Made by a program: the position numbers and the translations under genes
Shown: positions 2,984-18,549 of the stretch, in pieces
How the letters are laid out: every line of letters begins with the position of its first letter
Position numbering within the stretch: position 1 is the first letter of the stretch
Assembly (NCBI RefSeq): GCF_004804275.1
Contig: NZ_STGI01000001.1
Location: 248,001-312,000, forward strand
From: Herbaspirillum sp. ST 5-3
GTDB lineage: Bacteria > Pseudomonadota > Gammaproteobacteria > Burkholderiales > Burkholderiaceae_D
Length of the DNA: 64,000 nucleotides
Reading direction: 5' to 3'
The notes under the pieces: model-generated
Seen by the model: the letters and a program-made list of their open reading frames with translations, nothing else
What the model was told of the DNA's origin: nothing
The model's database searches: none

Positions 2984-3001
2984 GTGACGATATAAATATT
3001 T
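2966..3001. promoter_or_regulatory. Operator palindrome 1 overlapping the importer -35 box
   Basis: Perfect inverted repeat with 17-bp arms (2966-2982 and 2985-3001) around a 2-bp centre. The core is TATCGTC-N4-GACGATA. It covers the -35 element of the importer promoter, as a repressor site would. The regulator family (GntR or LacI type) is a guess from the symmetry; no regulator gene is in the window. Confidence 0.75.
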
Positions 3002-3088
3002 TTATCGGGAGCGATTTGAGCCTATTGATTTCAGCAATTCGCTGCTATCGGCCTACACAAGACCCTGCAGAGCAAACAATGTGGTCAA

Positions 3089-3116
3089 ATTTTTATCGTC
3101 GTACGACGATAAAAAT
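3089..3116. promoter_or_regulatory. Operator palindrome 2 of the importer operon
   Basis: Perfect 28-bp palindrome with 14-bp arms and no spacer. Its core TATCGTC-GTAC-GACGATA matches that of operator 1, with only the central four bases differing. The centres are 119 bp apart, a spacing that would allow DNA looping by one regulator. Confidence 0.75.
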
Positions 3117-3318
3117 GACAAAATAGAAATGCAACCAACGACCTCGACGTGGCCGTCAGCGCGTATCCGCAGGGGAGAAAGAAAAGTGCTGGCGCTACGC
3201 CGGCAGTCATCGCAACGGGTGCCCCGCGTTACTTTCCGGGCTGTGAGCGGGCGATGATGCGGAGGCGGAATATGGGCATCCGGGAGGCTGCCTCAATCCA
3301 CCACTCGGATGGGAATGC

Positions 3319-3350
3319 CGAAATCCGGTTGCCGACATAACCGGATTTCG
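3319..3350 (-). terminator. Hairpin after the hybrid kinase gene
   Basis: Perfect 12-bp stem (3319-3330 with 3339-3350) and an 8-nt loop, beginning 15 bp past the stop codon at 3366. No clear T-run follows on either strand, so intrinsic termination is uncertain. It may instead protect the 3' end. Confidence 0.45.
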
Positions 3351-3365
3351 CATGGCAGACGCGTA

Positions 3366-6300
3366 TCAGATGCCAGGCAGCGTCTTCGTCTGCCCTTCCC
3401 AATGCGGCGGTTCCCTCGTCAGCAGATCGCGCGCAAACTGCTCCGCCGGCACGGGCTTGCTCAGGTAATAGCCCTGCAGCAGATCGCAGCGCTGTTCGCG
3501 CAGGAAGCGCAACTGCGCTTCGGTCTCCACGCCTTCCGCCACCACTTCAAGTCGCAGGCTGTGGGCCAGCGCAATGATGCCGGTCACGATCGACGCGTCA
3601 TCCGAGTCGTCCGGCACGTCGCGCACGAAGGAGCGGTCGATCTTGATGATGTCGACCGGAAAGCGCTTCAGGTAGGACAAGGATGAATAGCCGGTACCGA
3701 AGTCGTCGATCGACAGCCGCACACCCAGGCTACGCAAGCGATGCAATGCCTCCAGCGTATCCTGCGCATGCTCCATCAAGGTGCTTTCGGTGATCTCCAG
3801 CTCCAACAGATTGGCTGGCAGGCCGGTGTCTTCCAGCGCACGTTCCACGATCTCCGCGAAGTTCTTTTGCAGCAGCTGCTTGACCGACAGATTGACCGCC
3901 ACCCGCATGGTCCGTCCCGCCTGGTTCCAACGCTGCATCTGCGCACAGGCAGTCCGCAACACCCATTCACCGATCGGATTGATCAGCCCGGTTTCCTCGG
4001 CCAGCGGGATGAACTCCACCGGCGACACCATGCCGCGCGCAGGATGATGCCAGCGCACCAGCGCTTCCACACCAATGATCATGCCATTGTCGACGCGCGC
4101 CTGCGGTTGATAATGCACATCGAGTTCGTTGCGTTCGATCGCGCGACGCAAATCGTTTTCCATCCGCACATGCTCCGAAATCGAACGCTCCATCGAAGGC
4201 TCGAAGAACTGGAAGCCGCTGTTGGTTTTCTTCGCGCGGTACATGGCGGTGTCGGCATGCTTGAGCAAGGTGCCGACGTCGGTGCCGTCGTGCGGATAGA
4301 TCGAAATGCCGACGCTGGTGGTGACAAAGATATCGTGCCCGTCGATCTGGAAAGGCGTTGCCAGTGAACGACAGATATTCTGCGCCGCGGCGACGGCCGC
4401 GTTGGGACCGACGACTTCGGCCAGCACCACGGTGAACTCGTCGCCTCCGAGGCGCGCCACGCAATCTGCATTGCGCACACTGCGGCGGATGCGTTGCGCC
4501 ACCGCCACCAGCAACTTGTCGCCGATATCATGACCGAGCGTGTCGTTGACGTTCTTGAAGCGGTCGAGGTCGAGGAACAGCACGGCGATCGACTCGCCGG
4601 CGACACGCGCCTGTTCGATACGTCGTCCCAGCTGGTCGATGAACAGCGCGCGGTTCGGCAGGCCGGTCAGCAGATCGTTGTAGGCGAGATGACGAATGCG
4701 CTTCTCGGCCTGATTGGCTTCGATGATGCGCCGCACGCGCTGTGACAAGACGGCGAAGTGGATCGGCTTGGGAATATAGTCGCTGGCCCCGGCGGCGAAC
4801 GCGCGCTCGACCGAGGTATTGTCTTCCAGCGCAGTAATCATCAGCACCGGAATGGCGCGTCCATTGGGCAATTCCTGCACGCGGGCGCAAGCGGTAAAGC
4901 CGTCCATCACCGGCATCACCGCATCCATCAGAATTACGTCCGGCTGCAGGCGTTTGAGCATCAGCAAGGCCTGCGCGCCGTCGGCGGCCTCTTCGACCTG
5001 GAAGCCATCGCGTTGCAGCGTGTGACGCAATGAGCTGCGCGTGCTGCGATCGTCGTCGACGATCAGCACCTGCGCCACTTCCTCTCCCCTGCGGATGCTC
5101 AAGCGGTCCTCGACATAGGCTTCCGTGCCTAGCACCATCGCCACCGCGTCGAACGCCTGCCGCAGGCGCGGCAATAGCGGACGGATATCGGCCACCCGGT
5201 GCTCGATGGCCAGATCTTCCGCTTCCTTCGCTAGCTGTGCCAGGACAGTCGCGCCCAGGTTGCCGCTGCTGCCCTTGACCGAGTGAGCCATGGCGCGCGC
5301 TGCATCCGCATTACCGTCCTGCACTGCCTGCTCCAATTGCGTCAGGTAGTCGGGCGTGTCTTCCAGGAAGGGCGTGATCGTTTGCCGAAGTGCCGGCCCC
5401 AGTATCTCGCGCAACTTGTCGAACACGAGCTGGTCGATCGGATTGTTATCGAGGTCGTTGACGCTGACTTCCGGCAGTTCCGATCGCCCGCCGTGCTCAT
5501 GCCGCGACAGCCAGCGTTCCAGCTTGAAGCGCAGTTCGACCAGGGTGATCGGTTTCGCCAGATAGTCATCCATGCCGGCGGCCAGGCATTTTTCTGCATC
5601 GCCCTGCTGCGTATTGGCGGTCATCGCCACAATGGGAGTACGCCTTCCGAGCGGTTCCTCGAAATTGCGGATATGCGCCGTCGCCTCGTAACCGTCCATC
5701 TCCGGCATGCTGCAGTCCATCAGGATCAGGTCAAAGCGGCCTCGGCGCGCCGCCTCGACTGCCTCGCGTCCATTGGAGGCAAACTCGCACTCGCAGCCGT
5801 TCATCGTCAGCATGCCGGCGGCGACCATCTGATTGGTGCGATTGTCCTCGGCGACCAGCACCCGGAATTCCTTGGCGACGCGATGCCTTGCGAGCGGCTG
5901 CGAGGGCGGAAATAGCGACACGCCGATCGCCTGTTCTCCCGGGAGCAAGCGGCGCACCGCCTCCATCATCCGATCGCGGCGCAAGGGCTTGCCGAGATAC
6001 ATGTCGGCCCCCAGCGAACTGCTGCCCATCGGCGACGCATAGCGATCCAGCACCAGCATGCGCGGCACTGTCATCTGGACTTCGACACGAATCCGGCGCA
6101 CCAGATCGCTGCCGCGCTCGTCGATCGCGTCCACGTCCATGATCAGGAGGTCATAGGGGGTGCGGGCATGTTCGCCTCGCGCCAGTTCGGCCAGCGCCTC
6201 GGCGCCATTGGTCACGGCATGGCAACGCATGCCCGCGGACGCCAGCGTCTGCTCGATGAACGCTCGCACGATTTCACTTTCGTCCACGGCCAGCACGCGC

Positions 6301-7832
6301 TTGCCGAACAATGTGCGATCGTCGGCCGACAGCGCCTGCGTATCGCTTTGCCTGCAGCTCGCGGTGAACCAGAAGGTACTGCCCCTGCCCTTTTGGCTGC
6401 TCACGCCGAGTTCGCCCTTCATCAGTGCAACGAGCTGCTTGCAGATCGCCAGGCCAAGCCCGGTGCCGCCGTATTTGCGCGTGGTCGAACGGTCCGCTTG
6501 CGCAAATGAGTCAAAGATATGCTTGACGGCATCCTCGCTCATGCCGATGCCGGTATCGACCACATCGAAACGCAGTCCGAAGTCGTTCTCCTCGATGCAG
6601 GAAATCCGCACAGCGACCTCGCCGTGTTCGGTGAATTTCACCGCATTGCCGATCAGATTCAGCAACACCTGGCGCAGACGCAGCGAATCCCCCCTCACCC
6701 GTTCCGGAACGCCGGGTGCCATCAGGTAGCCGATCTCCAGCCCCTTTTGCTGCGCCTGCTTGGCGAGCAGTTCGATCACTTCCTCGACCAGTTTGCGCAG
6801 ATCGAAGTCGACCTCGTCCAGTTCCAGCTTGCCGGCCTCCATCTTGGAGAAGTCGAGAATGTCGTTGATCAGCTCGATCAGCGCGCGCGATGAATTCCAC
6901 GCCACATCGACGCATTCCTGCTGACGCTTGGTGAGCTGCATTTCCTTGAGCATGTCGAGCATGCCGACCACGCCATTGAGCGGCGTGCGCACCTCATGAC
7001 TGACCGTCGCCGCGAATTGGGTCTTCATCAAGGCGGTATGCAATGCCTCGTCGCGCGATTGCTTCAGCTCGGCTTCGCGTTCTTCCAGCACGCCCATCAT
7101 CTTGTTGAACGCATGCGCCATTTCCACGATGTCGCGCGGTCCGTTCGGTACGGCACGCATGCCGGATTCGCCCGCTTCGGCGCGCCCCATCAGCTTGGAC
7201 AACGCCTGCAGCGGTTGCAGCATGCGACGCGCAAGCAGCCGCATGATCCCCAGCAGAACCGCCGCGAACGACAGCGTGACGGCCAAATTGCCGATCAACA
7301 GCGACGCGATCAGCTTGTTCAGTGTTCCCTTGCCGATCGTCACATGGACATAGCCGAGCAATTGCGGCTGGCGTTCCTGCATCTCGAATGGCGAGGAATC
7401 GGACTGCCCGCCGTACACGGGTGCACTGAAATACCATTCGTTGTCGGTTTGCTGCTCCAGCGTTGCGCGCGACACCGGCTGGCCGGTAATGCGGCTTTGC
7501 GGCGGCAGATCAACACCGGCCTTTGCCTGCGACAGCAGCACCTTATGCGCGGCGTCGGTAATTTCCACCTGCAGCACATCGGGAAATGCGAGCGTCGTGG
7601 CCACACCTTCGCGCACGTTCTCGGGCGAGCGGTAAAGCAGCGCAAGAATACTCTGTCGCGCCAGGTTCTCGGCGATGCGCTGCCCCTGCTCGACCAGGTA
7701 GCCTTCCATCCGGCGACCGGCCTCCCAGGAGTTCATCAATGAAGAAAACAAGGCCAGTCCGAGAATGGCAGCGGTGACCGTGATGGTCAGCTGCCTTCGG
7801 AAGCCGGTGCGGCTCAGTGAATCGCGGAACAT
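3366..7832 (-). CDS. Membrane hybrid histidine kinase with phosphorelay, GGDEF and EAL domains
   Basis: 1488 residues from the ATG at 7832; a TTG 24 bp upstream is possible. Order: membrane segment 16-35, periplasmic sensor 36-172, membrane segment 173-198, HAMP, HisKA (His279 in SHEVRTPLNG), ATPase domain 380-492 (DTGIGM, GTGLGLAI), a divergent receiver 511-630, receiver 656-775 (Asp706), HPt (His850 in AHSVKGSSGNLG), receiver 920-1035 (Asp970), GGDEF 1045-1207 with intact GGDEF and an RxxD inhibitory site five residues before it, and EAL 1230-1475 (EAL at 1256, DDFGTGYSS). It should autophosphorylate, relay phosphate internally and control cyclic-di-GMP synthesis and/or breakdown. The orphan binding protein 111 bp upstream is a likely signal partner (inference). 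Confidence 0.95.
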   Translation of the reverse strand: MFRDSLSRTGFRRQLTITVTAAILGLALFSSLMNSWEAGRRMEGYLVEQGQRIAENLARQSILALLYRSPENVREGVATTLAFPDVLQVEITDAAHKVLLSQAKAGVDLPPQSRITGQPVSRATLEQQTDNEWYFSAPVYGGQSDSSPFEMQERQPQLLGYVHVTIGKGTLNKLIASLLIGNLAVTLSFAAVLLGIMRLLARRMLQPLQALSKLMGRAEAGESGMRAVPNGPRDIVEMAHAFNKMMGVLEEREAELKQSRDEALHTALMKTQFAATVSHEVRTPLNGVVGMLDMLKEMQLTKRQQECVDVAWNSSRALIELINDILDFSKMEAGKLELDEVDFDLRKLVEEVIELLAKQAQQKGLEIGYLMAPGVPERVRGDSLRLRQVLLNLIGNAVKFTEHGEVAVRISCIEENDFGLRFDVVDTGIGMSEDAVKHIFDSFAQADRSTTRKYGGTGLGLAICKQLVALMKGELGVSSQKGRGSTFWFTASCRQSDTQALSADDRTLFGKRVLAVDESEIVRAFIEQTLASAGMRCHAVTNGAEALAELARGEHARTPYDLLIMDVDAIDERGSDLVRRIRVEVQMTVPRMLVLDRYASPMGSSSLGADMYLGKPLRRDRMMEAVRRLLPGEQAIGVSLFPPSQPLARHRVAKEFRVLVAEDNRTNQMVAAGMLTMNGCECEFASNGREAVEAARRGRFDLILMDCSMPEMDGYEATAHIRNFEEPLGRRTPIVAMTANTQQGDAEKCLAAGMDDYLAKPITLVELRFKLERWLSRHEHGGRSELPEVSVNDLDNNPIDQLVFDKLREILGPALRQTITPFLEDTPDYLTQLEQAVQDGNADAARAMAHSVKGSSGNLGATVLAQLAKEAEDLAIEHRVADIRPLLPRLRQAFDAVAMVLGTEAYVEDRLSIRRGEEVAQVLIVDDDRSTRSSLRHTLQRDGFQVEEAADGAQALLMLKRLQPDVILMDAVMPVMDGFTACARVQELPNGRAIPVLMITALEDNTSVERAFAAGASDYIPKPIHFAVLSQRVRRIIEANQAEKRIRHLAYNDLLTGLPNRALFIDQLGRRIEQARVAGESIAVLFLDLDRFKNVNDTLGHDIGDKLLVAVAQRIRRSVRNADCVARLGGDEFTVVLAEVVGPNAAVAAAQNICRSLATPFQIDGHDIFVTTSVGISIYPHDGTDVGTLLKHADTAMYRAKKTNSGFQFFEPSMERSISEHVRMENDLRRAIERNELDVHYQPQARVDNGMIIGVEALVRWHHPARGMVSPVEFIPLAEETGLINPIGEWVLRTACAQMQRWNQAGRTMRVAVNLSVKQLLQKNFAEIVERALEDTGLPANLLELEITESTLMEHAQDTLEALHRLRSLGVRLSIDDFGTGYSSLSYLKRFPVDIIKIDRSFVRDVPDDSDDASIVTGIIALAHSLRLEVVAEGVETEAQLRFLREQRCDLLQGYYLSKPVPAEQFARDLLTREPPHWEGQTKTLPGI

Positions 7833-7943
7833 AGGGTCACACTCACTGCAGGCCAAGGCGTGCGCAGGCGCGTCGCCATGTTGAACGGACCATCAAGCCA
7901 TCCGGCAGAAAACAGGTGTTCCAGTCTTGTGCGAGTCTATACA

Positions 7944-9065
7944 TCAAGGCTCCGGGAAAATGAAATCGAAATTGCGTTGTTCTTGATAACCGATGCTCAA
8001 GCCGATATGGCTGGCGGTGCGCAGATTCACCGCGGTCTGCACCTCGCGCAAGGGCTGTACGCCGCGGCGACGTGAATCGCCCGCCATGGCAGCAAGCGCG
8101 GAACCGGCCAATGTGCGACCGAGTTCCAGATTGTTGGGATAGAGCGCGAACAGCGCGCCTTTTTTCACATGCAGGAAGCTGCTGGAAAACACCGGCACGT
8201 TGCGGTTCCAGGATTCCTTCAAGACGAGTGGCAGGATGATGGTTTCATCGACCGTGGTCGCGTCCTGCGGCAACCAGATGGCATCGCGCCGGGCTTCGCT
8301 GTAAGCGAAGGCGGATTCATACAAGCGCGCCGCGCTGGCAAGATCACGCGCCTCGTGTGCCACCAGCTCCAGGCCTTGCGCCTTCGCTGCTTCGCGGGCG
8401 AACTTGATCAGCCATTCATTGTTCTGCGGGTTGTAGATGACGATCACCCGCTTGACACCAGGCAGCAGACTTTTCAGGCGGGAGAACAGCAGCGCCGGAT
8501 CCGGCGTCAGGCTCACACCGGTCAGATTGCGCGTTTCGTTTTCCGGCACCGCCAGCACGCCGCCGACCACGACCGGAATATCGCGGTCGAGTCCCGATAC
8601 CGCCTTCAGTCCCTGTCGGCCCAGCGCAATCACCACTTTCGCCCCGTTGCGTTTCAGCTGCGCCCCGAGTTCGGCAGATTCCACGTTCGGCCCGATCGGA
8701 TAATGACGCACCGCTGACTTCGCACCGTCTTCGATGCCCTCAATGATCCTAGCGAAGATGCTGCGATACGGTTCGCCGATATCAGGATAAACAATGGCCA
8801 GCGCCCCCGCGGTGGCAGCAAAGTCGCCGCGTCGCGCCTGGTCCCCCAACTCGGCAAGAGTAATCGGATTGAGGTCCTGGTATCTTGCCTTGGGCCCGAT
8901 CTCAATCGGTAACTGGACTGCTGGCGTATTCGCCTGGTAGCCGGCAGCAAGCGGCTCCGGCTTCGCAGACAGCATTCCCTGGCCGGCATGGGCGGCAGCC
9001 AGCGCGAGCAGCAGCAAAAAGCCGAACCCGAAACGCAACGCGCCAATCTGCAAGCAGCTCATCAT
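7944..9065 (-). CDS. Orphan periplasmic ABC-type substrate-binding protein (ABC_sub_bind / TrpX-like)
   Basis: 373 residues from tandem ATGs at 9065 and 9062, preceded by GGGAA; the open frame to 9182 has no ribosome site. A signal peptide (FGFGFLLLLALAAAHAG) ends near residue 28. The mature part has the two-lobed fold of the ABC_sub_bind family, with segments such as AKVVIALGRQGLKAV, IPVVVGGVLAVP, VKRVIVIYNPQNNEW and the hinge-side VPVFSSSFLHVKKGALFALYP. No permease or ATPase gene accompanies it. Instead it lies between a TonB-dependent receptor and a giant sensor kinase on the same strand. I infer that it presents a ligand to the kinase sensor domain rather than feeding a transporter. Confidence 0.85.
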   Translation of the reverse strand: MMSCLQIGALRFGFGFLLLLALAAAHAGQGMLSAKPEPLAAGYQANTPAVQLPIEIGPKARYQDLNPITLAELGDQARRGDFAATAGALAIVYPDIGEPYRSIFARIIEGIEDGAKSAVRHYPIGPNVESAELGAQLKRNGAKVVIALGRQGLKAVSGLDRDIPVVVGGVLAVPENETRNLTGVSLTPDPALLFSRLKSLLPGVKRVIVIYNPQNNEWLIKFAREAAKAQGLELVAHEARDLASAARLYESAFAYSEARRDAIWLPQDATTVDETIILPLVLKESWNRNVPVFSSSFLHVKKGALFALYPNNLELGRTLAGSALAAMAGDSRRRGVQPLREVQTAVNLRTASHIGLSIGYQEQRNFDFIFPEP

Positions 9066-9206
9066 TGAGCATTCCCAGCGAACATATGCCTTTTTGAAAC
9101 AAACAGTTACCGATAGTATCGAAGGATAGCGCAGATGGATGCTTTGGAGAAAGGTTCCTGAGTTGCGCGCGAAACGCCCCACGCTAAATTACAACGCTCC
9201 GGACAC

Positions 9207-9224
9207 GAGGTCGGTAATGACCTC
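9207..9224 (-). terminator. Weak hairpin after the TonB receptor gene
   Basis: 6-bp perfect stem with a 6-nt loop, 30 bp past the receptor stop codon at 9254 and before the binding-protein gene. There is no T-run, so it is at best a weak terminator. Confidence 0.3.
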
Positions 9225-9253
9225 CACTTTCCTGAGTCGGGTTCAGATCAACG

Positions 9254-11362
9254 CTAAAGGCTATGCTGAACCTGGAAATAAACGGCCCGACCAGGCAACG
9301 GCAAATCAAATGGAATATTCCCCGGTGCGAAGCTCGGCTCCCTCGCATCGCGATTAAATAGGTTAAGCACCGTCGCGCGGAAGTCCCAATTGCCGGCAAG
9401 CTTTTCTCGTTGCAAAGTCATGTCGACGGTGGTGTAGTCGGCAATCTGCGGGCGGTTGTCACCCGGTTGGCGCCGGCGATCGGCGACGTGATTGATTGTG
9501 GTGCCCCATTGCCATGACGGAGCCAAGCGCCAGTCTGCTCGCAAGAAAAGACGCTTGCGCGGAGCCAATCCCGCATCCTGCCCAGTCGCCTCATCTGTGG
9601 AATGCTGGAGTGAGTAACTACCTGTCAAGCGCAGGTTCCGCGTCGCATCCCAGGTTGTCTCCAATTCGAGGCCGCGCCCTGTTTGGTCTCCGGTATTCTG
9701 CGCTGTTGAGCCCGTAGTCGGATCGGTATTCGCTGTAAAGCGGATGATGTCCCTCATCTTGTACTGGAACAGGCTGAGGTTGGTCTCCAGACTCGATGCC
9801 GGCTTCCAAGAAAATGCAAGTTCGTTGGTCGCGATGGTCTCAGGCCTGAGGTTGGCATTACCGATTGTCACCGGGTTGTTGATGCTATAAAGCTCGGTGA
9901 AATTCGGCGCCCTGAACGCGCGCCCATGCATTGCCTTGACAGTCAAATTGTACGCAGCGTCCCATACCAAAGCGAGACGTGGATTGGTTGTACTTCCAAA
10001 ATCCGAATAACGGTCGTGACGCACGCCTGCTGTAAGCGACCAGTCTTTTGCGAGGTTCCATTCGTCTTGAGCGAAGACATAAGCTAAATGTCGCTTATGC
10101 GGTTGCATGTAGATGAATGAGGGGTTACCCGTAGCATCGACTATGCTCGGCAGTGGGAGAAATACAGGACCAACACCTGGAACTGTTACCAGATTGAAGT
10201 TCTTGAATTCTCTCGTGTCGTATAAATCCTCCTCCCGGGCACCAGCTCCGATTCTGACTCGATGATCGCTAAAGCCAGTGTAGAAGGATGACAGACTGAA
10301 ATGTGAATGGCGTTCTGAGTGGCCAGGATTCCCGAATACCCCATTCGGGAATGTTCCGCCAAATGCTCCTGGCGGGAATAACATATACGCAGGATCTCCT
10401 GGCTGCTCCTTGACATCGTAATAGCCAAAAACCGCAGAAACGTCCCAATTCGGTGCCCAGTTCGCATCCCGATAAGTCATGTCCAGGTACAAGCGTGAAG
10501 CTGGTGCACGACTATTCGGATCCAGGCTTTCCGCCAAACCAGCGCCGATGCCAACCTCTCGCTGTTGAAAACCCGCGCGAAAGCGCCATTGATCTAATGC
10601 GAGGTCAGCACGAGCATCAACTGCATTTCGAACTGCATTGACACGCCCCGGCGCAAGCGAAGCGTTGGTCCCGAAAACAGGGTCGAGGAGAGACTGTAGG
10701 TCTCGCTGTATCACGCCTTTCTGTCCATCGGTATGTCCGACTCGAAGATAGAACGCGGCCTCCAGCGCGCCAATGTTGCCGCCGTGCTGAATCCACGCGT
10801 CACGCGTATTGAAACTACCGGCTCGCAGGCCATACTCGGTGCCCTTGATGTCCGCGGCCGTTTTCGTAATGACGTTAATCACACCCGAGTATGCATCTGC
10901 TCCATATAGCGCTGACCCAGGCCCGCGAATTATCTCGATCCGTGCAATATTCTCAGTTGGCATCCCCCCCCAAACTTGACTGCGGTTTCCAAGAAAAACC
11001 GTGGTAATTGGGATGCCGTTGACCAGCATTAGAACTTGAGGATTGTAGCCTGTGAATATGCCGCGAAAACTATAAATGGGGTTAAAGGCCTGTGAATAGA
11101 CGGAAACATGAAGACCGGGCACGCTTTCCAACACCTGATCAAGATCCGTCACGCCCATCGCTTCAATCTCCCGGCTTGTAATGACGGTTGCCACCGCCGG
11201 TGCCCGAGCAATCGATTGTTGGCTACCTGTAGCGATGCTTATCGTTTCCTTATCGCCGTATGCAAGGGCGAGATCCTCCTCATCGGCAGTCTGTGCAGAA
11301 GCAATGTCGGCCAACGAGAGAGCAAGTACGGCACAAAACGCTCGACGTTGCAACGGTCGCAT
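9254..11362 (-). CDS. TonB-dependent outer-membrane receptor
   Basis: 702 residues from the ATG at 11362, with AAAGGGGA before it; the 20 codons upstream in the track frame are unlikely to be translated. A signal peptide ends near IASA, residue 24. A TonB-box-like stretch (KETISIATG) comes next. The plug domain (about 45-160) has VTDLDQVLESVPGLHV, VLMLVNGIPI and the plug signature RIEIIRGPGSALYGADAYSG. The rest is a 22-strand barrel typical of Cir/BtuB-like receptors, ending in FQVQHSL. It follows the second citrate-synthase-like gene by 56 bp and precedes the orphan binding protein. It could therefore be the last gene of that operon, the first of the sensory set, or both. The ligand is unknown. 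Confidence 0.92.
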   Translation of the reverse strand: MRPLQRRAFCAVLALSLADIASAQTADEEDLALAYGDKETISIATGSQQSIARAPAVATVITSREIEAMGVTDLDQVLESVPGLHVSVYSQAFNPIYSFRGIFTGYNPQVLMLVNGIPITTVFLGNRSQVWGGMPTENIARIEIIRGPGSALYGADAYSGVINVITKTAADIKGTEYGLRAGSFNTRDAWIQHGGNIGALEAAFYLRVGHTDGQKGVIQRDLQSLLDPVFGTNASLAPGRVNAVRNAVDARADLALDQWRFRAGFQQREVGIGAGLAESLDPNSRAPASRLYLDMTYRDANWAPNWDVSAVFGYYDVKEQPGDPAYMLFPPGAFGGTFPNGVFGNPGHSERHSHFSLSSFYTGFSDHRVRIGAGAREEDLYDTREFKNFNLVTVPGVGPVFLPLPSIVDATGNPSFIYMQPHKRHLAYVFAQDEWNLAKDWSLTAGVRHDRYSDFGSTTNPRLALVWDAAYNLTVKAMHGRAFRAPNFTELYSINNPVTIGNANLRPETIATNELAFSWKPASSLETNLSLFQYKMRDIIRFTANTDPTTGSTAQNTGDQTGRGLELETTWDATRNLRLTGSYSLQHSTDEATGQDAGLAPRKRLFLRADWRLAPSWQWGTTINHVADRRRQPGDNRPQIADYTTVDMTLQREKLAGNWDFRATVLNLFNRDAREPSFAPGNIPFDLPLPGRAVYFQVQHSL

Positions 11363-11418
11363 AATCTTTTCCCCTTTAATCTTGCACCAACATGCTCGGC
11401 CTCTGATCAGGTGCTGGG

Positions 11419-12255
11419 TCACTCCCTAGAACTGCTGCCTGTGTTTCTCCATGGGCGCTTCGACCTCCCCTCATAGAGAATATCACTACATGAAATCGGA
11501 TATAAAGCACCTTCAGGACGTTCTGATGCTTCTATAAGACACGGTTGCATCCCCGCGAGAAATGCGGGAAACAAGAAAAGGTAATATTCGCGGGGTGAAA
11601 ATCCGAGATCGGCGGCCAGCGCGGCAACCAATCCTGCGTAATTCATTTTCATTCGCCAGCGGCCTGCGAACAGAAACTCTTCGATCTCAAATGCGAGTCG
11701 CAGATATACTCCTTCACCGAAACCAAGTTCCTTTTTCAACGCCAGCAAATGCTGGTTGCGTTCATCGCCGTTGATAAGCGGTCGGCCATAACCCGCAATA
11801 CTACGATTGCTTTCCAATTCTCGACGAACGCACTCCTCCAAGGAGCATCCTTCGTCCAATTGCTTGCGCGTACGCAGAAGAAATTCAATCGCGCGTATAT
11901 CAATTCCACGCCCATAAATCGATGCTTCCGATACTGCCAACGCAGCAGCTACACCTAGATTGCCAGTACTGCGAGCACTGCCGGCAAGCGCAGCGACCCT
12001 GTTATTCCAGAGTCGAACATCCGGATAGCTAGTGTAGGTCCAGATCGAATGCAGCAACCGCAATTCCTTCGGAGAGAAACGACGTCCAGTGATACCAAAC
12101 GTATAGAGCTCCACCCAGTCCATGTCCTTGAGCTCTGTATGCAGGTCATGGCCTCGAAATATCACATGACTTCCCGGAAAAAAAGTCCCCATGCGGCTTT
12201 TTAGCACGCCGACATTCTCACGCAACAGATCCGGCCCCTTCGACCCTGTCTTCAT
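11419..12255 (-). CDS. Citrate-synthase-family protein B, apparently lacking catalytic residues
   Basis: 278 residues. The ATG at 12255 overlaps the TGA of the preceding gene (ATGA), so translation is coupled; a TTG 12 bp upstream is less likely. The family is recognised by IWTYTSYPDVRLWNNRVAAL, AALAVSEASIYGRG, RSIAGYGRPLINGDERN and DLGFSPREYYLFLFPAF. By eye alignment, the first active-site His of citrate synthase (GPLHGGA) falls at IYGRG, the second (GFGH) is Arg in GYGR, and the catalytic Asp of NVD is not seen. It may bind an acyl-CoA-like ligand or act only with its neighbour. An automated call would be citryl-CoA lyase; I would not trust that function. Local G+C is low. Confidence 0.75.
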   Translation of the reverse strand: MKTGSKGPDLLRENVGVLKSRMGTFFPGSHVIFRGHDLHTELKDMDWVELYTFGITGRRFSPKELRLLHSIWTYTSYPDVRLWNNRVAALAGSARSTGNLGVAAALAVSEASIYGRGIDIRAIEFLLRTRKQLDEGCSLEECVRRELESNRSIAGYGRPLINGDERNQHLLALKKELGFGEGVYLRLAFEIEEFLFAGRWRMKMNYAGLVAALAADLGFSPREYYLFLFPAFLAGMQPCLIEASERPEGALYPISCSDILYEGRSKRPWRNTGSSSRE

Positions 12256-13058
12256 GGCTGTCCCCAATCGGATTCATCAACCAACTCCACTGTCCCAAAT
12301 GGAAATTTCTTGTAGCCGAGCGGACGCTGTTCCAGTGCGTGAGCGGCAGCACCGGGCAGCCGCAACAACAGGTGAACCATTTCCGCCTGTTCAGGTGAGA
12401 ACCCAAGGTCGGCGAATGCAGCTGCGGCAACCCCCGATAGAGCCAGAGGGATTCCGGCAAGCTTTTCCATTGCTTCCCTGTTCTCATTCAGCCAGGGCAG
12501 AAACGGTCCGGATTGATATCGAACCAGGCAGGAAAGAGTTTGCGTCACTGTTGTAGCAGTACTGACGCCGTGTGGGTCAAAGCCAGGGGGGTGATCAGCT
12601 TTTGGCCAAATACTCCCCGCAGGCGTTGGGAAGTTATCGAAGCGGTTCTTCCATGCGCCAAGATCGGTGCCGCAAGAAGCCCAACCTTCCATCGCAAGGA
12701 AAATCTCCCGACCCCCTGACAACTGCCCGGCGCCAACAGCAAGCGCGGCCATTAACGAAGATGCAGCTGTCGAGCCACAGACACCCCCGCACATTGCAGC
12801 ATGTATGGAAGCATCGCGAGGCCCTGGGTTGGCAAGGGCAACAGCCAAAGCCTCCAATAAATCCGCTTGTGCTGCCGTTGGCGGCTCCTCAAAAAAAAGC
12901 AAGTAGAGCATCTCCACCCAGCGTGCTTGCCCCACCATTTCGCCGTAGACATCAAAACCTCGGCAATAGGCTGCCTTGGTAGCAAATGGATTGTCCGGCT
13001 CGGCTTCTTCTCGCCAAATTCGGCTGCGAATGGCGTTCGGGTTTTCTTTTTCGCTCAT
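12252..13058 (-). CDS. Citrate-synthase-family protein A, atypical active site
   Basis: 268 residues, ATG at 13058, 16 bp after the dehydrogenase gene. The citrate synthase large-domain pattern is clear: CRGFDVYGEMVGQARWVEML, LLFFEEPPTAAQADLLEAL, SIHAAMCGGVCGSTAASS, and a C-terminal DLGFSPEQAEMVHLLLRLPG with AAAHALEQRPLG. The segment that should read LSGPLHGGA is shortened to LSGGRE, so the oxaloacetate-binding His seems missing, and NVD is replaced by LSG. At 268 residues it is much shorter than a true citrate synthase (about 380-430). It overlaps gene B by 4 bp, and the pair may form a hetero-oligomer. No function is assigned. Confidence 0.75.
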   Translation of the reverse strand: MSEKENPNAIRSRIWREEAEPDNPFATKAAYCRGFDVYGEMVGQARWVEMLYLLFFEEPPTAAQADLLEALAVALANPGPRDASIHAAMCGGVCGSTAASSLMAALAVGAGQLSGGREIFLAMEGWASCGTDLGAWKNRFDNFPTPAGSIWPKADHPPGFDPHGVSTATTVTQTLSCLVRYQSGPFLPWLNENREAMEKLAGIPLALSGVAAAAFADLGFSPEQAEMVHLLLRLPGAAAHALEQRPLGYKKFPFGTVELVDESDWGQP

Positions 13059-13074
13059 TGTCTTTGGTCGCCCG

Positions 13075-13824
13075 CTATAACAAACTCATGCCGCCATCGA
13101 CCACGATTTCTTCGCCGACCACATATGCGGAGTCGTCGGAAGCGAGAAACAACGCAGTCTTTGCAATTTCGTCGGGTGTTCCAAATCGCTTGATGGGGGA
13201 TTTGCGCTCGATCTCCCCTTTGACGGCCTTGACCATCTCCGCAGGAAGTCCGAAGCGATCAAAAATCGGAGTGGCAATCGGCCCCGGGCTAATAGCGTTC
13301 ACTCTTATGCCGCGCTCAATCAATTCCAGCGCTAGCGACTTCACGACAGAGCGCAACGCCGCCTTGCTCGCGCCATATACGCTGAAGTTGGGAGAGCCCA
13401 ATTGATTCGTAATCGAGGTCGTGACGATGATCGACGCACTGGAACTGAACAGCGGCAACGCTTTTTGAATCGTGAAGAACACCCCCTTGAAATTGGTATT
13501 CATGATTTCGTCAAAAAGCGACTCGGAGACATGTTCAATGGGAGCCGCCTTCGCCGCACCAGCATTAAGGAGTAACACATCGATTGTTCCGAAACGTGCT
13601 CTCGCCTGTTCCATCAGTGACTCGATTGCGGAGATATCGCTTGCGTCACTGCAAATCGCCAGCGTTTCAATTCCCAATTCCTGTTGTGCACGAGCCAATC
13701 CCTCGGGATCTCTGCCCGTAATAATCAGAGACGCGCCCTCGTCCTTGAATAATTTCGCGGTCGCCAACCCAATGCCACTGGTCCCGCCAGTGATCAATAC
13801 GTTTTTTCCTTTTAGCCGGTTCAT
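13075..13824 (-). CDS. Short-chain dehydrogenase/reductase (SDR)
   Basis: 249 residues, ATG at 13824 with AGGAAG before it, 9 bp after the thiamine-enzyme gene. Classical SDR motifs are present: cofactor loop GGTSGIG at residues 13-19, NAG near 89, active-site Ser in TTSITNQLG, and YGASK with catalytic Tyr and Lys near 150-154, then SPGPIATP. The residue after the second strand region (ITGRDPEG) suggests NADP(H) rather than NAD(H); this is weak evidence. In this operon it probably reduces or oxidises a keto/hydroxy group on the product of the thiamine enzyme. The substrate is unknown. Confidence 0.9.
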   Translation of the reverse strand: MNRLKGKNVLITGGTSGIGLATAKLFKDEGASLIITGRDPEGLARAQQELGIETLAICSDASDISAIESLMEQARARFGTIDVLLLNAGAAKAAPIEHVSESLFDEIMNTNFKGVFFTIQKALPLFSSSASIIVTTSITNQLGSPNFSVYGASKAALRSVVKSLALELIERGIRVNAISPGPIATPIFDRFGLPAEMVKAVKGEIERKSPIKRFGTPDEIAKTALFLASDDSAYVVGEEIVVDGGMSLL

Positions 13825-13833
13825 CGTTTCTTC

Positions 13834-15702
13834 CTAAAGCAAATCTCTTAAAATGCGCATCCGAACACTCATCGGCGGTACCTCTTCCGGATCCACCAAC
13901 ACATCCAGCAAGGTCGGCCCCGCGCGCGTGCACATCGCTTCCACATCGAGTTTCATCAAATCTTCCGGGGAGCGAATCGTGAATCCTTCCGCGCCAAGCG
14001 CCCTCGCCAGCGCCGCAAAATCGGTCGGGGGCAAATCGCATCCGATCTGCTCCGCCTTGGCCAGCCGCTGGCCGTGCTTGACCATGCCCAACGCCCGGTC
14101 GTTGAGTACGACAAAAATCACGGCGAGCTTTTCTGCTACAGCGACCGAGACTTCCTGTCCGTTCATCAGCATGCTGCCGTCCCCGGTGATGCATACGACA
14201 GGCGCGTCGGGATTGGCGGCGGCAGTGCCGACTGCGCCGCCGATCGCCCATCCCATCGGGGCGTAATTCATCGTCACCCGCAGCCATCCGCCGGAGGTCT
14301 TGCGACGTCCGAGCGTTCGCTTGCGTTCGCTGCCCAGCCGGCGTTCACCGACACGGCGGTCTCTTGGGTGCAGATAGTGCGTGGACCAGGAGACGCTGTT
14401 GCCAGTATCGGCAAGGAAGCGCGTGGTCGGCGGGAACATCAGCCCAAGCTCGCGCATCAATCGTTGCGGCTTGATCGGCGTTGCGTCGCTCAGGTATTTG
14501 TCCATGTCCGACAACATGCGGTCGGGGTCGGATACACGTATGTCCAGATCGCGCGAGGCGCGCGCGTGCTCGATTTCGTAGGAAGCGTGCTTGCTCACGT
14601 CCTTCATGCGTTCGAGCAGGCGATTGAAAATCGAGAGAATGCGCCCGCGCACATGAAAGCGCGCCATCGGCGTTAGCGCGAGATGGTCTTCCGATTCGTC
14701 GATGTGCACCATGCGCTCGTTCAGCAGGCTGTCGCTCCATCCGCCGCTGTTCCATTCGCCCATGCTGGCGCCGACCGCGAGAATCAGGTCCACTGATTCG
14801 TCGCGCAATGCCGCCTCCGCCGATGCGTGGCCGCCGAATCCGAATACGCCGCGGAACAAGGGATGATGCGGACTGACCGATCCCTTGCCGTCCGGCGTGG
14901 TGACAAAGGTCGCGCCGATCAATGCGGCGAACTGAAGAATCGAGCCCGCAGCTTCGCCACACCATCCGCCGATCAGCAGAACGACTTTTTTTGCGTCGAG
15001 CACCATCCGGTACACGGTGTCCACCGCCTCTTCATCAACGAGCGATGAGGGCGCCAGTAGTTGGCGCAGATCGTACGACGGTTGCGCCGGGGTGCTCGGA
15101 CTGCGGAACACGTCGACTGGCATGCTCAAGTGCACCGGCCCGCGCGGCGTGCGGGTTGCCCTCTGCAGCGCGGCGATCAATTTCGGTTCAAGTTGCTTCG
15201 GATGGGACACGAGCGAGTTGTAGCGCGTGCAGTGGCGGAACATGCCGAGCACATTGACGCCGGTACAGCTGGATTCCTGCAGCGCGTGCTTGCCGAATGC
15301 AGGCAAGGCCGGCTGGCCGGTGATCACCAGCATCGGGATGTTGTTGTCGTAGGCACCCGCGACCCCGGTAATCAGGTTGGTCGCGCCAGGACCGGAGGTG
15401 GAGCAGCAAACGCCGATATTGCCTGTCTCGCGTGCATAGCCATCAGCCATGAATGCCGCACCGGCTTCGTGCCGCGCGAGGATATGTTGAATACCTCCCC
15501 TGCGGCGGCTTCTTGCGATGGCATTGTAAAGAGGTTCGATCGCGCCACCCGGAACGCCGAAGATGTATTCGACGCCAATCTGCTCCAGGTAGGCCACCAA
15601 CAAATCGGCAACTTCAATTTCCACGGAGGGTTCGGAACTGCTTTGAGAGTTGTCCTGTTCCTCGTCATGAACATAGTATGTGTGCGAGATGTTGGTGCGC
15701 AT
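13834..15702 (-). CDS. Thiamine-diphosphate-dependent enzyme, acetolactate-synthase-like
   Basis: 622 residues, ATG at 15702. Three domains: N-terminal pyrimidine-binding (30-200) with activating Glu79 in ARHEAGAAFMADGYAR, a central domain (220-360), and C-terminal pyrophosphate-binding with the GDG motif at 507-509 and Asn534 (GDGSMLMNGQ, VVLNDRALGM). It resembles IlvB, glyoxylate carboligase and sulfoacetaldehyde acetyltransferase, but no IlvN-type small subunit is adjacent. It carries a 30-residue acidic/Ser-rich N-terminal extension and an Arg-rich insertion at about 447-472. It is the first gene of the SDR/citrate-synthase-like operon. It probably makes a C-C bond by carboligation or decarboxylates a 2-oxo acid; which one cannot be told. 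Confidence 0.88.
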   Translation of the reverse strand: MRTNISHTYYVHDEEQDNSQSSSEPSVEIEVADLLVAYLEQIGVEYIFGVPGGAIEPLYNAIARSRRRGGIQHILARHEAGAAFMADGYARETGNIGVCCSTSGPGATNLITGVAGAYDNNIPMLVITGQPALPAFGKHALQESSCTGVNVLGMFRHCTRYNSLVSHPKQLEPKLIAALQRATRTPRGPVHLSMPVDVFRSPSTPAQPSYDLRQLLAPSSLVDEEAVDTVYRMVLDAKKVVLLIGGWCGEAAGSILQFAALIGATFVTTPDGKGSVSPHHPLFRGVFGFGGHASAEAALRDESVDLILAVGASMGEWNSGGWSDSLLNERMVHIDESEDHLALTPMARFHVRGRILSIFNRLLERMKDVSKHASYEIEHARASRDLDIRVSDPDRMLSDMDKYLSDATPIKPQRLMRELGLMFPPTTRFLADTGNSVSWSTHYLHPRDRRVGERRLGSERKRTLGRRKTSGGWLRVTMNYAPMGWAIGGAVGTAAANPDAPVVCITGDGSMLMNGQEVSVAVAEKLAVIFVVLNDRALGMVKHGQRLAKAEQIGCDLPPTDFAALARALGAEGFTIRSPEDLMKLDVEAMCTRAGPTLLDVLVDPEEVPPMSVRMRILRDLL

Positions 15703-15963
15703 AATGGATGCTTGCTTTCGATCTGTTTAACGACTCCCTTATTGTTCTTAGCGAGAAGCACAAAACCGCATCCCATTCCAAGAGCCAGTTATTAACCCCG
15801 GGCAATGTTACCGTAAATTGCCAGCCAGAAGTAAGCTGAAGTGAAGAAAGTACATCTCGGGAATGCTGATGCGAAATATGTGTCGTCACTCAAAAGAGAC
15901 GTCTTTGAAACCGCGCTTTCAGAAACGAGAAGCGGACGAGAGAAGCGGACAAAATCAGGATTG

Positions 15964-15983
15964 CCGAAATGCAAGCATTTCGG
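15964..15983 (-). terminator. Hairpin after the diguanylate cyclase gene
   Basis: Perfect 9-bp arms (15964-15972 and 15975-15983) with a 2-nt centre, starting 7 bp past the stop codon. On the minus strand a partly T-rich stretch (TGATTTTG) follows at a distance. It separates the cyclase gene from the thiamine-enzyme operon. Confidence 0.5.
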
Positions 15984-15990
15984 GATACCC

Positions 15991-17493
15991 TCATGCATGA
16001 CATGTGGCGTCGCTGAAGCGATAGCAACTCTTGCCACACTCCTTGGCTCGATACATCGCATGATCGGCTTCGCTCAGCAGCAGTTCGGGAGACTTTGCGC
16101 CGCCCTTCGTGCTGCTGATGCCGATGCTGGCCGAAATCCTGATCACCCTGCCGTCCAGTTCCGTCAGCGCGTGCAGCTCATGCAACACAGCCTCGGCGAT
16201 CCGGATCGCGCCATCGGGAATATGTATTTCGTTCAGCACGATCACGAATTCGTCGCCACCGAGGCGGCCCATCGCATCTTCCTTGCGCACATGCCGCTTG
16301 ATGCGCGCCGCGACTTCCTGCAACACACGGTCGCCAGCCGCATGGCCGTAGGTGTCGTTGATTTCCTTGAACCCGTCGAGGTCGATGAACATCAGGGCGA
16401 CGACCCATCCGCGCCGCTCGGCGCGCTGCAAAGCCTGTGTCAGCTCCGCCATGAGATGACGACGATTGATGAGCCCGGTCAGGGTGTCGTAGGTTGCCAG
16501 CTCCGCCAGTTGCGCGGACCGATGCTCCAGCTCCGCGGTGCGTTCTGCGACACGTTGTTCCAGTGTTTCATTGGCGACCTGCAAATGCTTGTTGACCCGC
16601 GCAATCACCTGGTAGCTGTGCATCAGGCGCCATGCCGCATAGGACAACAGGATGAGCAGGAATCCCGAGTACGCGAACAAATACGTCCGATAGCGTTGTT
16701 TCTCCTCCAGCATGCTTTTGAATTGCACATCAAATGCACTTCTCACATCGTCGATCCGTTTTGCGGTCGGCAGGGAGACAATGCGCGTCGTCAGCGCATC
16801 TTCGGCCAGACGTTGCCGCACAATGATGCGCGCATGTCGGGTCAACAAATCCAGCGACTCTCGCAGCGTGTCCGGATAGGTGCCGCGTCGCTCCTCGATC
16901 CTGGCGACCGTCGAGAGAATTTTTTCTTCCAGCTCCGCCGCCGGGTTGAGGTTGAAGAGCAGGATATCCGTCAGAAGCTGATCGACCTCTGCTGACAGCG
17001 CGGCGAGCGGCCGCACCTGCTTCGAGCCTGTGCCATGCTCCTGGTGCAGCATCGCGTGGAGGTCCTCGACCGCAGTCGGAAAATAAAACAGTGAATTTTG
17101 CAGCAAGGCGTTCTGCGACTTGAATTGCTCGATCAGGTCTTCCTTGCTTGCGAACGCGACTTCCAGCTGATGCGATGCCGTTTCAAGCGCATTGCCTTGC
17201 GCCATGTCGACGCCCTGCCTCAGACGAGCGCGCAACGCGTGCAGATGTTGCAAGAGCGTGGTGACCGGATCATAGTTGCTGTTGATGCCGATGCGCGACT
17301 TGAGCACATTGGCATTCCATTCGGCGTCCAGTTGCTTGAGTTCACGCAACACCGGCAGGACGTGATCCTGCACATCGATATCAATGGCCTGCGTCCGGTA
17401 GTACAGAAATCCCGACAAGGCCGACAAAACGATGAAGCCGAGGCAGAGCAGCAGGGCGCGCGGATGTCTCATTTCATTTTTCGGCAAGCGCAT
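15991..17493 (-). CDS. Membrane-bound diguanylate cyclase with helical periplasmic sensor
   Basis: Up to 500 residues; the second Met (ATG at 17472, 1 bp past the upstream stop) is an equally good start. Membrane segments lie at about 13-32 and 270-290. Between them is an all-helical periplasmic region of about 235 residues, similar in look to DAHL-type sensors. A short coiled coil (LEQRVAERTAELEHRSAQL) leads to a GGDEF domain (about 335-495) with TYDTLTGLINRRH, FIDLDGFKEINDTYGH, intact GGDEF and an RxxD inhibitory site (RKED) five residues before it. It should make cyclic-di-GMP with product feedback. It overlaps or abuts the di-haem peroxidase gene, so the signal may be redox-related (inference). 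Confidence 0.92.
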   Translation of the reverse strand: MRLPKNEMRHPRALLLCLGFIVLSALSGFLYYRTQAIDIDVQDHVLPVLRELKQLDAEWNANVLKSRIGINSNYDPVTTLLQHLHALRARLRQGVDMAQGNALETASHQLEVAFASKEDLIEQFKSQNALLQNSLFYFPTAVEDLHAMLHQEHGTGSKQVRPLAALSAEVDQLLTDILLFNLNPAAELEEKILSTVARIEERRGTYPDTLRESLDLLTRHARIIVRQRLAEDALTTRIVSLPTAKRIDDVRSAFDVQFKSMLEEKQRYRTYLFAYSGFLLILLSYAAWRLMHSYQVIARVNKHLQVANETLEQRVAERTAELEHRSAQLAELATYDTLTGLINRRHLMAELTQALQRAERRGWVVALMFIDLDGFKEINDTYGHAAGDRVLQEVAARIKRHVRKEDAMGRLGGDEFVIVLNEIHIPDGAIRIAEAVLHELHALTELDGRVIRISASIGISSTKGGAKSPELLLSEADHAMYRAKECGKSCYRFSDATCHA

Positions 17494-18490
17494 GTGACGG
17501 GACCTGCCCGCTCAAGCTGTTGAGAAATTTGACGATCAGCGTCTTGTCTGCCCTCGGTGCCGATCGTCCGAGCTGGTACTTGAACATGACATCGACTGCC
17601 TCTTCCAGGTTTGCCGCCGACGCGTTATGAAAATACGGCGCCGTGCGTGCGACATTGCGCAGGCTTGGCACCTTGAACACAAACTTGTCGCTGTCGCGTC
17701 CGGTCACCAGGTAGCGTCCGAAGTCGGCGTCGTCCGGCTTGAGGTACGGTCGCACCACGCCAAATACCTGGAACATGTTGCCGCCGACATTGATGCCTTG
17801 ATGACATGCGATGCAGCCATAACTCTTGAACCGTGCATAGCCCTGCTTTTCTTCCGCGGTGATGGCATTGGCGTCGCCGCGCAGGTAGGCATCGAAACGC
17901 GAAGGCGTCACCAGCGAACGCTCGAACTCGGCGAGTGCATCCATGGCACTCTCGCGGCTCAGACCGCCGAGGTAGACATTCTTGAAATCGCGTACAAGTT
18001 CCGCATCGAGCGACAGCTTGGCAAGCACGCTTGTCCAGCTTGTATCGAACACATTGGGATTGGTGATCACCAGATCGATCTGATGCTCCAGTGTTTCAGC
18101 CTTGCCGTTCCATAACTGGCGAAAATTGAATCCGCTGTTGAATACGGTCGGCACATTGATCATGCCAACCCGGCCATCGACTCCGACCGGGCGCGCCCGC
18201 CCGTCCGCGCCGCCCCTGGCGAAATCATGGCAACTGGCGCAACTGACCTTATTGTCGCGGGAAAAGCGCGTATCGAAAAACAGGCGCTTGCCAAGGGCTG
18301 CCTTGGCGGCATTGAATTCGATCTTTTCAGGCAGGGGCCGGATAGGCTCATCCGGCAGAAGCCGCATGCTTGTGTCAACGCTGTCCGCCGCCCGGACGCC
18401 GGCTGTACCCAGCAGCATCGCCATCAAGGCAAGCAATCGAAAAGTGAACATGGCGATCAACAATCTGCGCATCCAAATGGCATTTGCCAT
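17474..18490 (-). CDS. Di-haem cytochrome c peroxidase family protein (CcpA/MauG-like)
   Basis: 338 residues from the ATG at 18490; an inner Met at 18472 is the alternative. A signal peptide (LLALMAMLLGTAGVRAA) ends near residue 35, so the protein is periplasmic. Two c-type haem sites are visible: CASCH at 84-88 and CIACH at 226-230. Between them are family blocks such as GKRLFFDTRFSRD, VPTVFNSGF and FERSLVTPSRFD; FKVPSLRNVARTAPYFHN follows the second haem. Length and motifs fit bacterial H2O2-reducing peroxidases. It is directly followed by a diguanylate cyclase whose start meets its stop. The electron donor is not identifiable. Confidence 0.92.
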   Translation of the reverse strand: MANAIWMRRLLIAMFTFRLLALMAMLLGTAGVRAADSVDTSMRLLPDEPIRPLPEKIEFNAAKAALGKRLFFDTRFSRDNKVSCASCHDFARGGADGRARPVGVDGRVGMINVPTVFNSGFNFRQLWNGKAETLEHQIDLVITNPNVFDTSWTSVLAKLSLDAELVRDFKNVYLGGLSRESAMDALAEFERSLVTPSRFDAYLRGDANAITAEEKQGYARFKSYGCIACHQGINVGGNMFQVFGVVRPYLKPDDADFGRYLVTGRDSDKFVFKVPSLRNVARTAPYFHNASAANLEEAVDVMFKYQLGRSAPRADKTLIVKFLNSLSGQVPSHALAEK

Positions 18491-18549
18491 TCGTGAAGGA
18501 TAGCAAGAATCGCCGCAATCGAGTTGCACAACAGAAACAAATTAGCGCG

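Follow-up and report, generated by a model that had tools for sequence, protein, structure and literature searches.

A seven-gene unit of Herbaspirillum and other water and soil bacteria that may be an undescribed communication system

What is the purpose of four closely packed bacterial genes that bring together a thiamine diphosphate (ThDP)-dependent enzyme, a short-chain dehydrogenase/reductase (SDR) and two proteins resembling citrate synthase, here called CSa and CSb? The genes lie in Herbaspirillum sp. ST 5-3, in a stretch of 64,000 nucleotides referred to below as the window (NCBI RefSeq assembly GCF_004804275.1, contig NZ_STGI01000001.1, positions 248,001 to 312,000 of the forward strand), all on the minus strand and in the order ThDP enzyme, SDR, CSa, CSb. 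A sequence-only reading of the window had reported these genes as one unit matching no standard pathway. Their coordinates, strand and spacing were confirmed (9 bp between ThDP enzyme and SDR, 16 bp between SDR and CSa, and a 4-bp overlap, ATGA, between CSa and CSb), the families assigned to them agree with family scans, and we too know of no standard pathway that they match. The linkage of the genes recurs in the loci of relatives, so the idea of a single unit holds, but the extent first given to it does not, since the unit runs on through a TonB-dependent receptor, a periplasmic binding protein of family PF04392 and a membrane sensor. Many water and soil bacteria carry this seven-gene unit, of which the four genes make up the enzyme half. 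Its members in the window are as follows.

13834..15702, minus strand: ThDP-dependent carboligase of the acetolactate-synthase/BbmA-CsmA kind, 622 amino acids, the predicted first enzyme (Pfam TPP N, M and C)
13075..13824, minus strand: SDR, an optional tailoring enzyme (Pfam adh_short_C2)
12252..13058, minus strand: CSa, half-size protein of predicted citryl-CoA-lyase fold, in which neither the first catalytic His nor the Asp is kept (profile, predicted fold, alignment)
11419..12255, minus strand: CSb, second half-size protein of predicted citryl-CoA-lyase fold, with all three catalytic residues replaced (profile, predicted fold, alignment)
9254..11362, minus strand: TonB-dependent outer-membrane receptor (Pfam plug and barrel)
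7944..9182, minus strand: PF04392 periplasmic binding protein (Pfam)
3366..7856, minus strand: membrane sensor, 1496 amino acids, sCache_4-HAMP-HisKA-HATPase followed by three receivers, Hpt, GGDEF and EAL (domain scan)

The ATG at 12255 is taken as the start of CSb, the open reading frame itself opening at 12267 with TTG; the TonB receptor starts with the ATG at 11362, 56 bp from CSb, in a frame that opens at 11422 with GTG. The proteins of the four genes show 41–80% identity across aligned relatives, and the genes are therefore not chance reading frames. We hold it slightly better than an even chance that the unit is a self-contained circuit by which a small molecule is made, recaptured and sensed, in the manner of LuxP/LuxQ, with its own synthase and mainly a cyclic di-GMP (c-di-GMP) output.

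An alignment of CSa searched against a genome collection gave 181 relatives, from which the best 80 loci were kept, a selection in which distant forms are under-represented. The hosts are Gallionella, Sideroxydans, Rhodocyclales, Collimonas, Methylomonas, Aquabacterium, Geobacter and others. Across all 80 loci the ThDP enzyme was found in 75, CSb in 78, the TonB receptor in 64, the binding protein in 55 and the sensor in 54, and tailoring genes in fewer (SDR 24, sulfotransferase 4, adenosine 5'-phosphosulfate (APS) kinase 4). For the 51 well-covered loci, which extend at least 7 kb on either side of CSa, the counts are ThDP enzyme 49, CSb 50, TonB receptor 46, binding protein 42, sensor 42 and SDR 17. 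This is the synteny check that had been proposed from the sequence alone, and the same families do recur together; the suspicion that the TonB receptor belongs with the enzymes is borne out by its 46 occurrences. The enzyme block and the capture-and-sense block belong together in a conserved unit. The SDR is optional and no core member. Gene order in the family's loci is mostly collinear (ThDP enzyme, SDR where present, CSa, CSb, TonB receptor, binding protein, sensor), the receptor part lying elsewhere in some genomes such as G113. In 41 of 42 loci the binding-protein and sensor genes are direct neighbours in the same orientation; the pair shares the strand of CSa in 23 loci and takes the opposite strand in 18, so that its link to CSa has survived rearrangement. 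In G043 the receptor parts are remoter relatives (50% and 44% identity), and the Geobacter locus L056 has a divergent ThDP enzyme, a TonB receptor, a PF04392 protein and a hybrid kinase, the Geobacter loci counting as holders by construction because the binding-protein profile, A7, contains two Geobacter sequences.

The same association is seen across whole genomes. In the family to which ST 5-3 belongs, CSa is matched in 12 of 145 genomes, that of ST 5-3 included, and is accompanied by binding protein and sensor in 12/12; six genomes of this sample have the binding protein without CSa. Of 369 genomes sampled from the class, 41 have CSa (28 strong matches, and 13 weak at 98–146 bits) and 46 have the binding protein; the sensor part was matched in 104 at E 1e-15 and in 49 at 170 bits or more, the latter cut, used for counting, having been set after the list was seen. 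The binding protein is present in 36 of the 41 genomes with CSa versus 10 of the 328 without it (Fisher p 2e-35), such p-values being optimistic, since the profiles were built from unit members, the sensor cut was post hoc and the sampled genomes are related. The sensor likewise occurs in 36 of the 41 genomes with CSa, and in 45 of the 46 with the binding protein; four genomes have the sensor alone. Where CSa and binding protein occur together, they lie within 15 kb of each other in 27 genomes, on different contigs in nine, and far apart on one contig in none. Loci were fetched for nine of the 13 genomes with weak CSa matches: five (L129, L131, L132, L133 and L135) have ThDP enzyme, TonB receptor, CSa, CSb, binding protein and sensor clustered in an order that varies; L130 has no ThDP enzyme in the stretch examined and L134 no receptor pair on that contig; and L139 and L140 have the TonB receptor and the CSa/CSb pair, in L140 with an SDR, and neither ThDP enzyme nor receptor pair. 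Three loci with strong CSa matches (L136–L138) have the ThDP enzyme and the CSa/CSb pair, with an SDR in L136, and no TonB receptor, binding protein or sensor.

Receivers exist without makers. Fifteen genomes (six from the family sample, nine from the class sample) have both receptor parts without a CSa match, a set that leaves out genomes with a single part (G196, G019, G219, G347, G356 and G457). They were searched for the ThDP enzyme and CSb together with a positive control, G113, which was found. In seven of the 15 there is neither a CSb nor a ThDP match at E 1e-60; five of these genomes (G111, G125, G138, G376 and G357) are 98–100% complete, and G021 and G430 are 86% and 85% complete. CSb was matched in only one of the 15, G323.

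Structure prediction for CSa and CSb was confident (mean predicted local distance difference test score, pLDDT, 86 and 89), and the top Foldseek match of both is citryl-CoA lyase 6hxp (CSa: E 4e-08, TMq 0.68, root-mean-square deviation (rmsd) 8.0; CSb: E 9e-11, TMq 0.74, rmsd 3.1). Profile comparison gave E 8e-11 for CSa and 4e-11 for CSb, and their citrate-synthase and citryl-CoA-lyase matches in Pfam and NCBIfam scans are weak, below curated cut-offs. The two proteins are predicted to share the overall fold of citryl-CoA lyase and citrate synthase. In those enzymes catalytic roles are assigned to two His residues and an Asp. With L028, which has DHG and NIDG, as comparator, the column of the first catalytic His (DHG/DHE) holds Pro in 79 of 81 CSa rows, with His in none, and Pro in 77 of 78 CSb rows; the column of the catalytic Asp holds Ser or Thr in 72 of 81 CSa rows and Ala or Gly in 68 of 78 CSb rows. 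The column of the second catalytic His (GYGH) holds Arg in all 78 CSb rows (GYGR). CSa may keep this one residue of the three, His156, which is conserved in 77 of 81 rows, aligning with the second catalytic His in two alignments. The first His and the Asp being gone from both proteins in nearly all aligned members, the CoA-ester condensation attributed to the pair by the sequence-only reading is unsupported. Other residues are invariant or close to it (Asn77, Gly79, Arg81, Arg233 and His240 in CSa; Arg162, Pro163, Asp168, Glu169, Arg170 and Asp220 in CSb), which suggests that the pair carries a new active site and not a decayed one, and because CSb accompanies CSa in 50 of the 51 well-covered loci the two are likely to form a heterodimer.

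That CSa and CSb are simply the ordinary citrate synthase of the cell was considered and rejected, a Pfam search of its own genome leading to two other genes. A tblastn search with CSa against 72,556 plasmid records, made with plasmid spread in mind, gave no match. In a locus of Rhodocyclales (L047, 8152-12653) CSa, CSb, CSa, CSb and CSb follow in series after the ThDP enzyme and SDR, and an APS kinase lies beyond them at a distance of about 4 kb. The locus of Noviherbaspirillum denitrificans (L064, 8925-10648) has matches only to the SDR, to part of CSa and to the C-terminus of the ThDP enzyme. The copy may have decayed, or the assembly, with 90 N in the locus, may have a gap there.

The ThDP enzyme matches all three Pfam domains, N, M and C, and its closest relatives in the Protein Data Bank (PDB) are BbmA and CsmA (PDB 8x3x, 8x3z). 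In an alignment of 93 sequences, which may include a few enzymes from outside the unit, the catalytic Glu (Glu79 here) is present in 91, with two gaps, and the cofactor motif GDG...N in 92, with one gap; both sequence hallmarks of the ThDP-dependent decarboxylase superfamily are thus in place. As an acetolactate synthase the enzyme falls short, scoring 304.5 bits with TIGR00118 against a curated equivalog cut-off of 538 and having Gly544 in place of the acceptor-pocket Trp. It is this Trp that limits the acceptor pocket of acetohydroxyacid synthases (AHAS). Gly544 is kept in at least 97% of the 93 sequences, and Trp is found there in L143, a paralogue in the same genome called AHAS-like from a reading of its sequence; the replacement suggests that the enzyme takes a bulkier acceptor. 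In the PDB entry named BbmA-G484F (8xod) Phe stands for Gly at the residue aligned to Gly544, and the Arg-rich residues 444-471 of the ThDP enzyme are unaligned to BbmA. In one genome (G009; L033, 3134-12502) the ThDP gene adjoins two binding proteins and a sensor, with no match to CSa or CSb; since it stands beside receptor genes without the pair, the ThDP enzyme may be the core of the unit.

No second PF04392 protein was found in the genome. In the sensor, the signature residues of GGDEF and EAL are legible. Domains were compared (at E 1e-5) among 46 sensors, namely that of the window and those of 45 loci, the 50 sensor loci having been reduced by exclusion of L088, L090, L116 and L122 on size and of L102 as truncated: HAMP was found in 42, GGDEF in 33, EAL in 33, HisKA in 31 and receivers in 25. 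The sensor end is common to the members and the output differs. Unassigned neighbouring frames of at least 150 amino acids were clustered, and the 25 largest clusters, those in at least four of the 80 loci, were considered. Apart from one cluster found in 27 loci, of which the two members scanned are sensor kinases, none occurs in more than seven; the smaller clusters scanned were an aminotransferase, a FolD-like protein and one without a match, and the others include a family of about 334 amino acids in six loci. No neighbour family recurs widely, and therefore no permease generally accompanies the PF04392 protein, which speaks for a role in sensing and against one in import, with several of the smaller clusters left without a family. 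Receptor pairs lying away from CSa (L029, L030, L032 and L034) have neighbours in common, including genes without a Pfam match; in L029, the only one scanned, a hydroxyacylglutathione-hydrolase-like protein lies upstream and a LysR regulator downstream, and L032 belongs to G113, whose enzymes sit on another contig.

These parts are best put together as follows. The ThDP enzyme would join a 2-oxo acid to a second one or to a bulky acceptor, giving an alpha-hydroxy-keto compound, and the CSa/CSb pair, a repurposed citryl-CoA-lyase fold and probably a heterodimer with a new active site, would convert this product further; in some lineages it would be tailored by the SDR or by sulfotransferase and APS kinase. 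The molecule would then leave the cell and be recaptured via the TonB receptor; the PF04392 protein would bind it and act on the periplasmic domain of the sensor, as LuxP does on LuxQ; and the output would be a phosphorelay and c-di-GMP turnover, the latter in most members scanned. The simplest reading is that the molecule made is also the molecule sensed. L022 and L027 have a sulfotransferase and an APS kinase close to the enzymes, and both are matched in L060, L072 and L082, with single matches to sulfotransferase in L065 and to APS kinase in L047 (L060 and L065 are apparently the contigs of L019 and L018 again); in this minority of loci, tailoring genes of this kind beside the enzymes fit synthesis better than breakdown.

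Several observations weigh against such a circuit, in addition to the optimism of the p-values. Binding protein and sensor are not nearby in nine of the 51 well-covered loci (L047, L064, L082, L084, L087, L094, L098, L107 and L110), and five of the 41 genomes of the class with CSa have neither receptor part at the cut-offs used. A ThDP match at E 1e-60 persists in eight of the 15 receptor genomes without CSa, some of these matches being weak or fragmentary (that in G007 is a fragment; those in G009, G276 and G177 are on the contig of the receptor genes), so the ThDP enzyme and the CSa/CSb pair are not always used together. Loss of the catalytic residues would also fit a structural or regulatory role for CSa and CSb. 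The sensing domain is only partly recognised, sCache_4 being matched in six of the 46 sensors at E 1e-5, and no exporter recurs among the neighbour clusters of the 80 loci.

The main rival, which we judge unlikely, is that the unit senses and degrades: the TonB receptor would import a hydroxyketone-like nutrient, the PF04392 protein and sensor would detect it, and its breakdown would fall to the ThDP enzyme, as a lyase, together with the SDR and the CSa/CSb pair. ThDP enzymes and SDRs can work in either direction, TonB receptor, binding protein and sensor are also usual in nutrient detection, and the receptor genomes without enzymes could merely be detecting the nutrient. However, no catabolic or transport family is widespread among the neighbours (the kinase-like group aside, none exceeds seven of the 80 loci), the sulfotransferase and APS kinase genes of a few loci point to making, and the CSa/CSb pair is without the residues that citryl-CoA lyase chemistry needs. 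We give little credence to the view that the enzymes make an alpha-hydroxy-acid chelator, a metallophore or public good whose loaded form is taken up by the TonB receptor and measured by binding protein and sensor. The TonB receptor does adjoin the enzyme genes, alpha-hydroxy acids can chelate iron, and several host genera are iron-oxidising or iron-reducing; but no importer recurs among the neighbours, and none of the 25 TonB families listed reaches its cut-off for the receptor. Matches to the Fur box of at least 10 of 14 positions were slightly commoner in 67 stretches upstream of the ThDP gene, the window included, than in one shuffle of each (13/67 against 6/67), an excess too small to be taken as a signal of Fur regulation, and the best match in the window is 8 of 14. 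About equally improbable is a cluster for a specialised metabolite, antibiotic-like or a pigment, with self-sensing as local feedback control and not communication: AHAS-like enzymes do serve such metabolism (the ScyA model matches the ThDP enzyme at E 3e-71, below its cut-off) and tailoring varies between SDR and sulfotransferase, but seven of the 15 receptor genomes lack all three enzyme genes searched, and the mostly GGDEF/EAL output of the sensors suits control of lifestyle better than local feedback.

The proposed make, recapture and sense circuit has partial precedents. In LuxP/LuxQ, which responds to autoinducer-2 (AI-2), and NspS/MbaA of Vibrio, a periplasmic binding protein is paired with a membrane sensor kinase or a GGDEF/EAL protein. 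By analogy the same pairing would operate here, where the binding protein adjoins the sensor and no permease-like neighbour recurs among the clusters listed; the present unit adds its own TonB receptor and the block of ThDP and citrate-synthase-like enzymes, and its PF04392 family, and probably its ligand, are different. In the alpha-hydroxyketone quorum sensing of CqsA/CqsS, LqsA/LqsS and JqsA a dedicated synthase gene lies near its sensor kinase, as the putative one does here, and the product here might also be an alpha-hydroxyketone. CqsA, LqsA and JqsA are pyridoxal phosphate (PLP) enzymes, whereas here a ThDP enzyme and a citrate-synthase-like pair are combined with a TonB receptor and a binding protein. 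Citryl-CoA lyase (6hxp) and citrate synthase have in common with CSa and CSb the predicted fold and an RGxD motif, and differ in that the unit has two paralogous genes, found together almost without exception. BbmA and CsmA, to which the ThDP enzyme is closest among solved structures, are alpha-hydroxy-beta-keto acid synthases according to PMC13307353 and to PDB names, and it is from sequence kinship with them that the joining of two oxo acids is suggested here. No description of such a unit was found in the open-access literature, where absence is weak evidence.

The surroundings of the unit in the window offer one possible boundary.

15964..15983, no strand: 9-bp perfect inverted repeat, a possible boundary of the unit, in the interval that separates the ThDP gene from the DAHL-GGDEF gene upstream of it

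The repeat is absent from the terminator-like sites of a terminator scan (3000-16200), which also listed no minus-strand site in the spacers of the unit. Upstream on the same strand lies the gene for a DAHL-GGDEF sensor protein (15991-17493), overlapping that for a MauG-like di-haem peroxidase (17474-18529), of which no counterpart was matched in the family loci compared. On the other side, and also on the same strand, the unit is followed by an apparent ABC transporter (502-2932), which reads like a binding protein and a permease; neither was matched in the family loci compared. A common upstream 8-mer, TATCTGGA, with its overlaps, was discarded as a motif, since in 19 of 21 loci it falls within the start of the ThDP coding sequence.

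The unit may, then, be an undescribed bacterial communication system. Its parts would separately be named, after the nearest family models, as acetolactate synthase, citryl-CoA lyase, TonB receptor and sensor kinase. More tentatively, and against the balance of probability in our view, it would represent a widespread and undescribed class of cell-cell signalling, in which a ThDP carboligase and a heterodimeric enzyme of repurposed citryl-CoA-lyase fold make a new kind of signal; this would enter by the unit's own TonB receptor and be read by the PF04392 protein and a sensor with mainly c-di-GMP output, and receiver-only bacteria would listen in. The gene order, the co-occurrence and the receiver-only genomes make the signalling reading testable now. 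If it is true, about one in ten of the sampled genomes of the class (36/369, with CSa and both receptor parts) carry a unit for making and reading a signal, and there would be a new class of signal, a new role for the citrate-synthase fold and direct access to what switches c-di-GMP in these bacteria.

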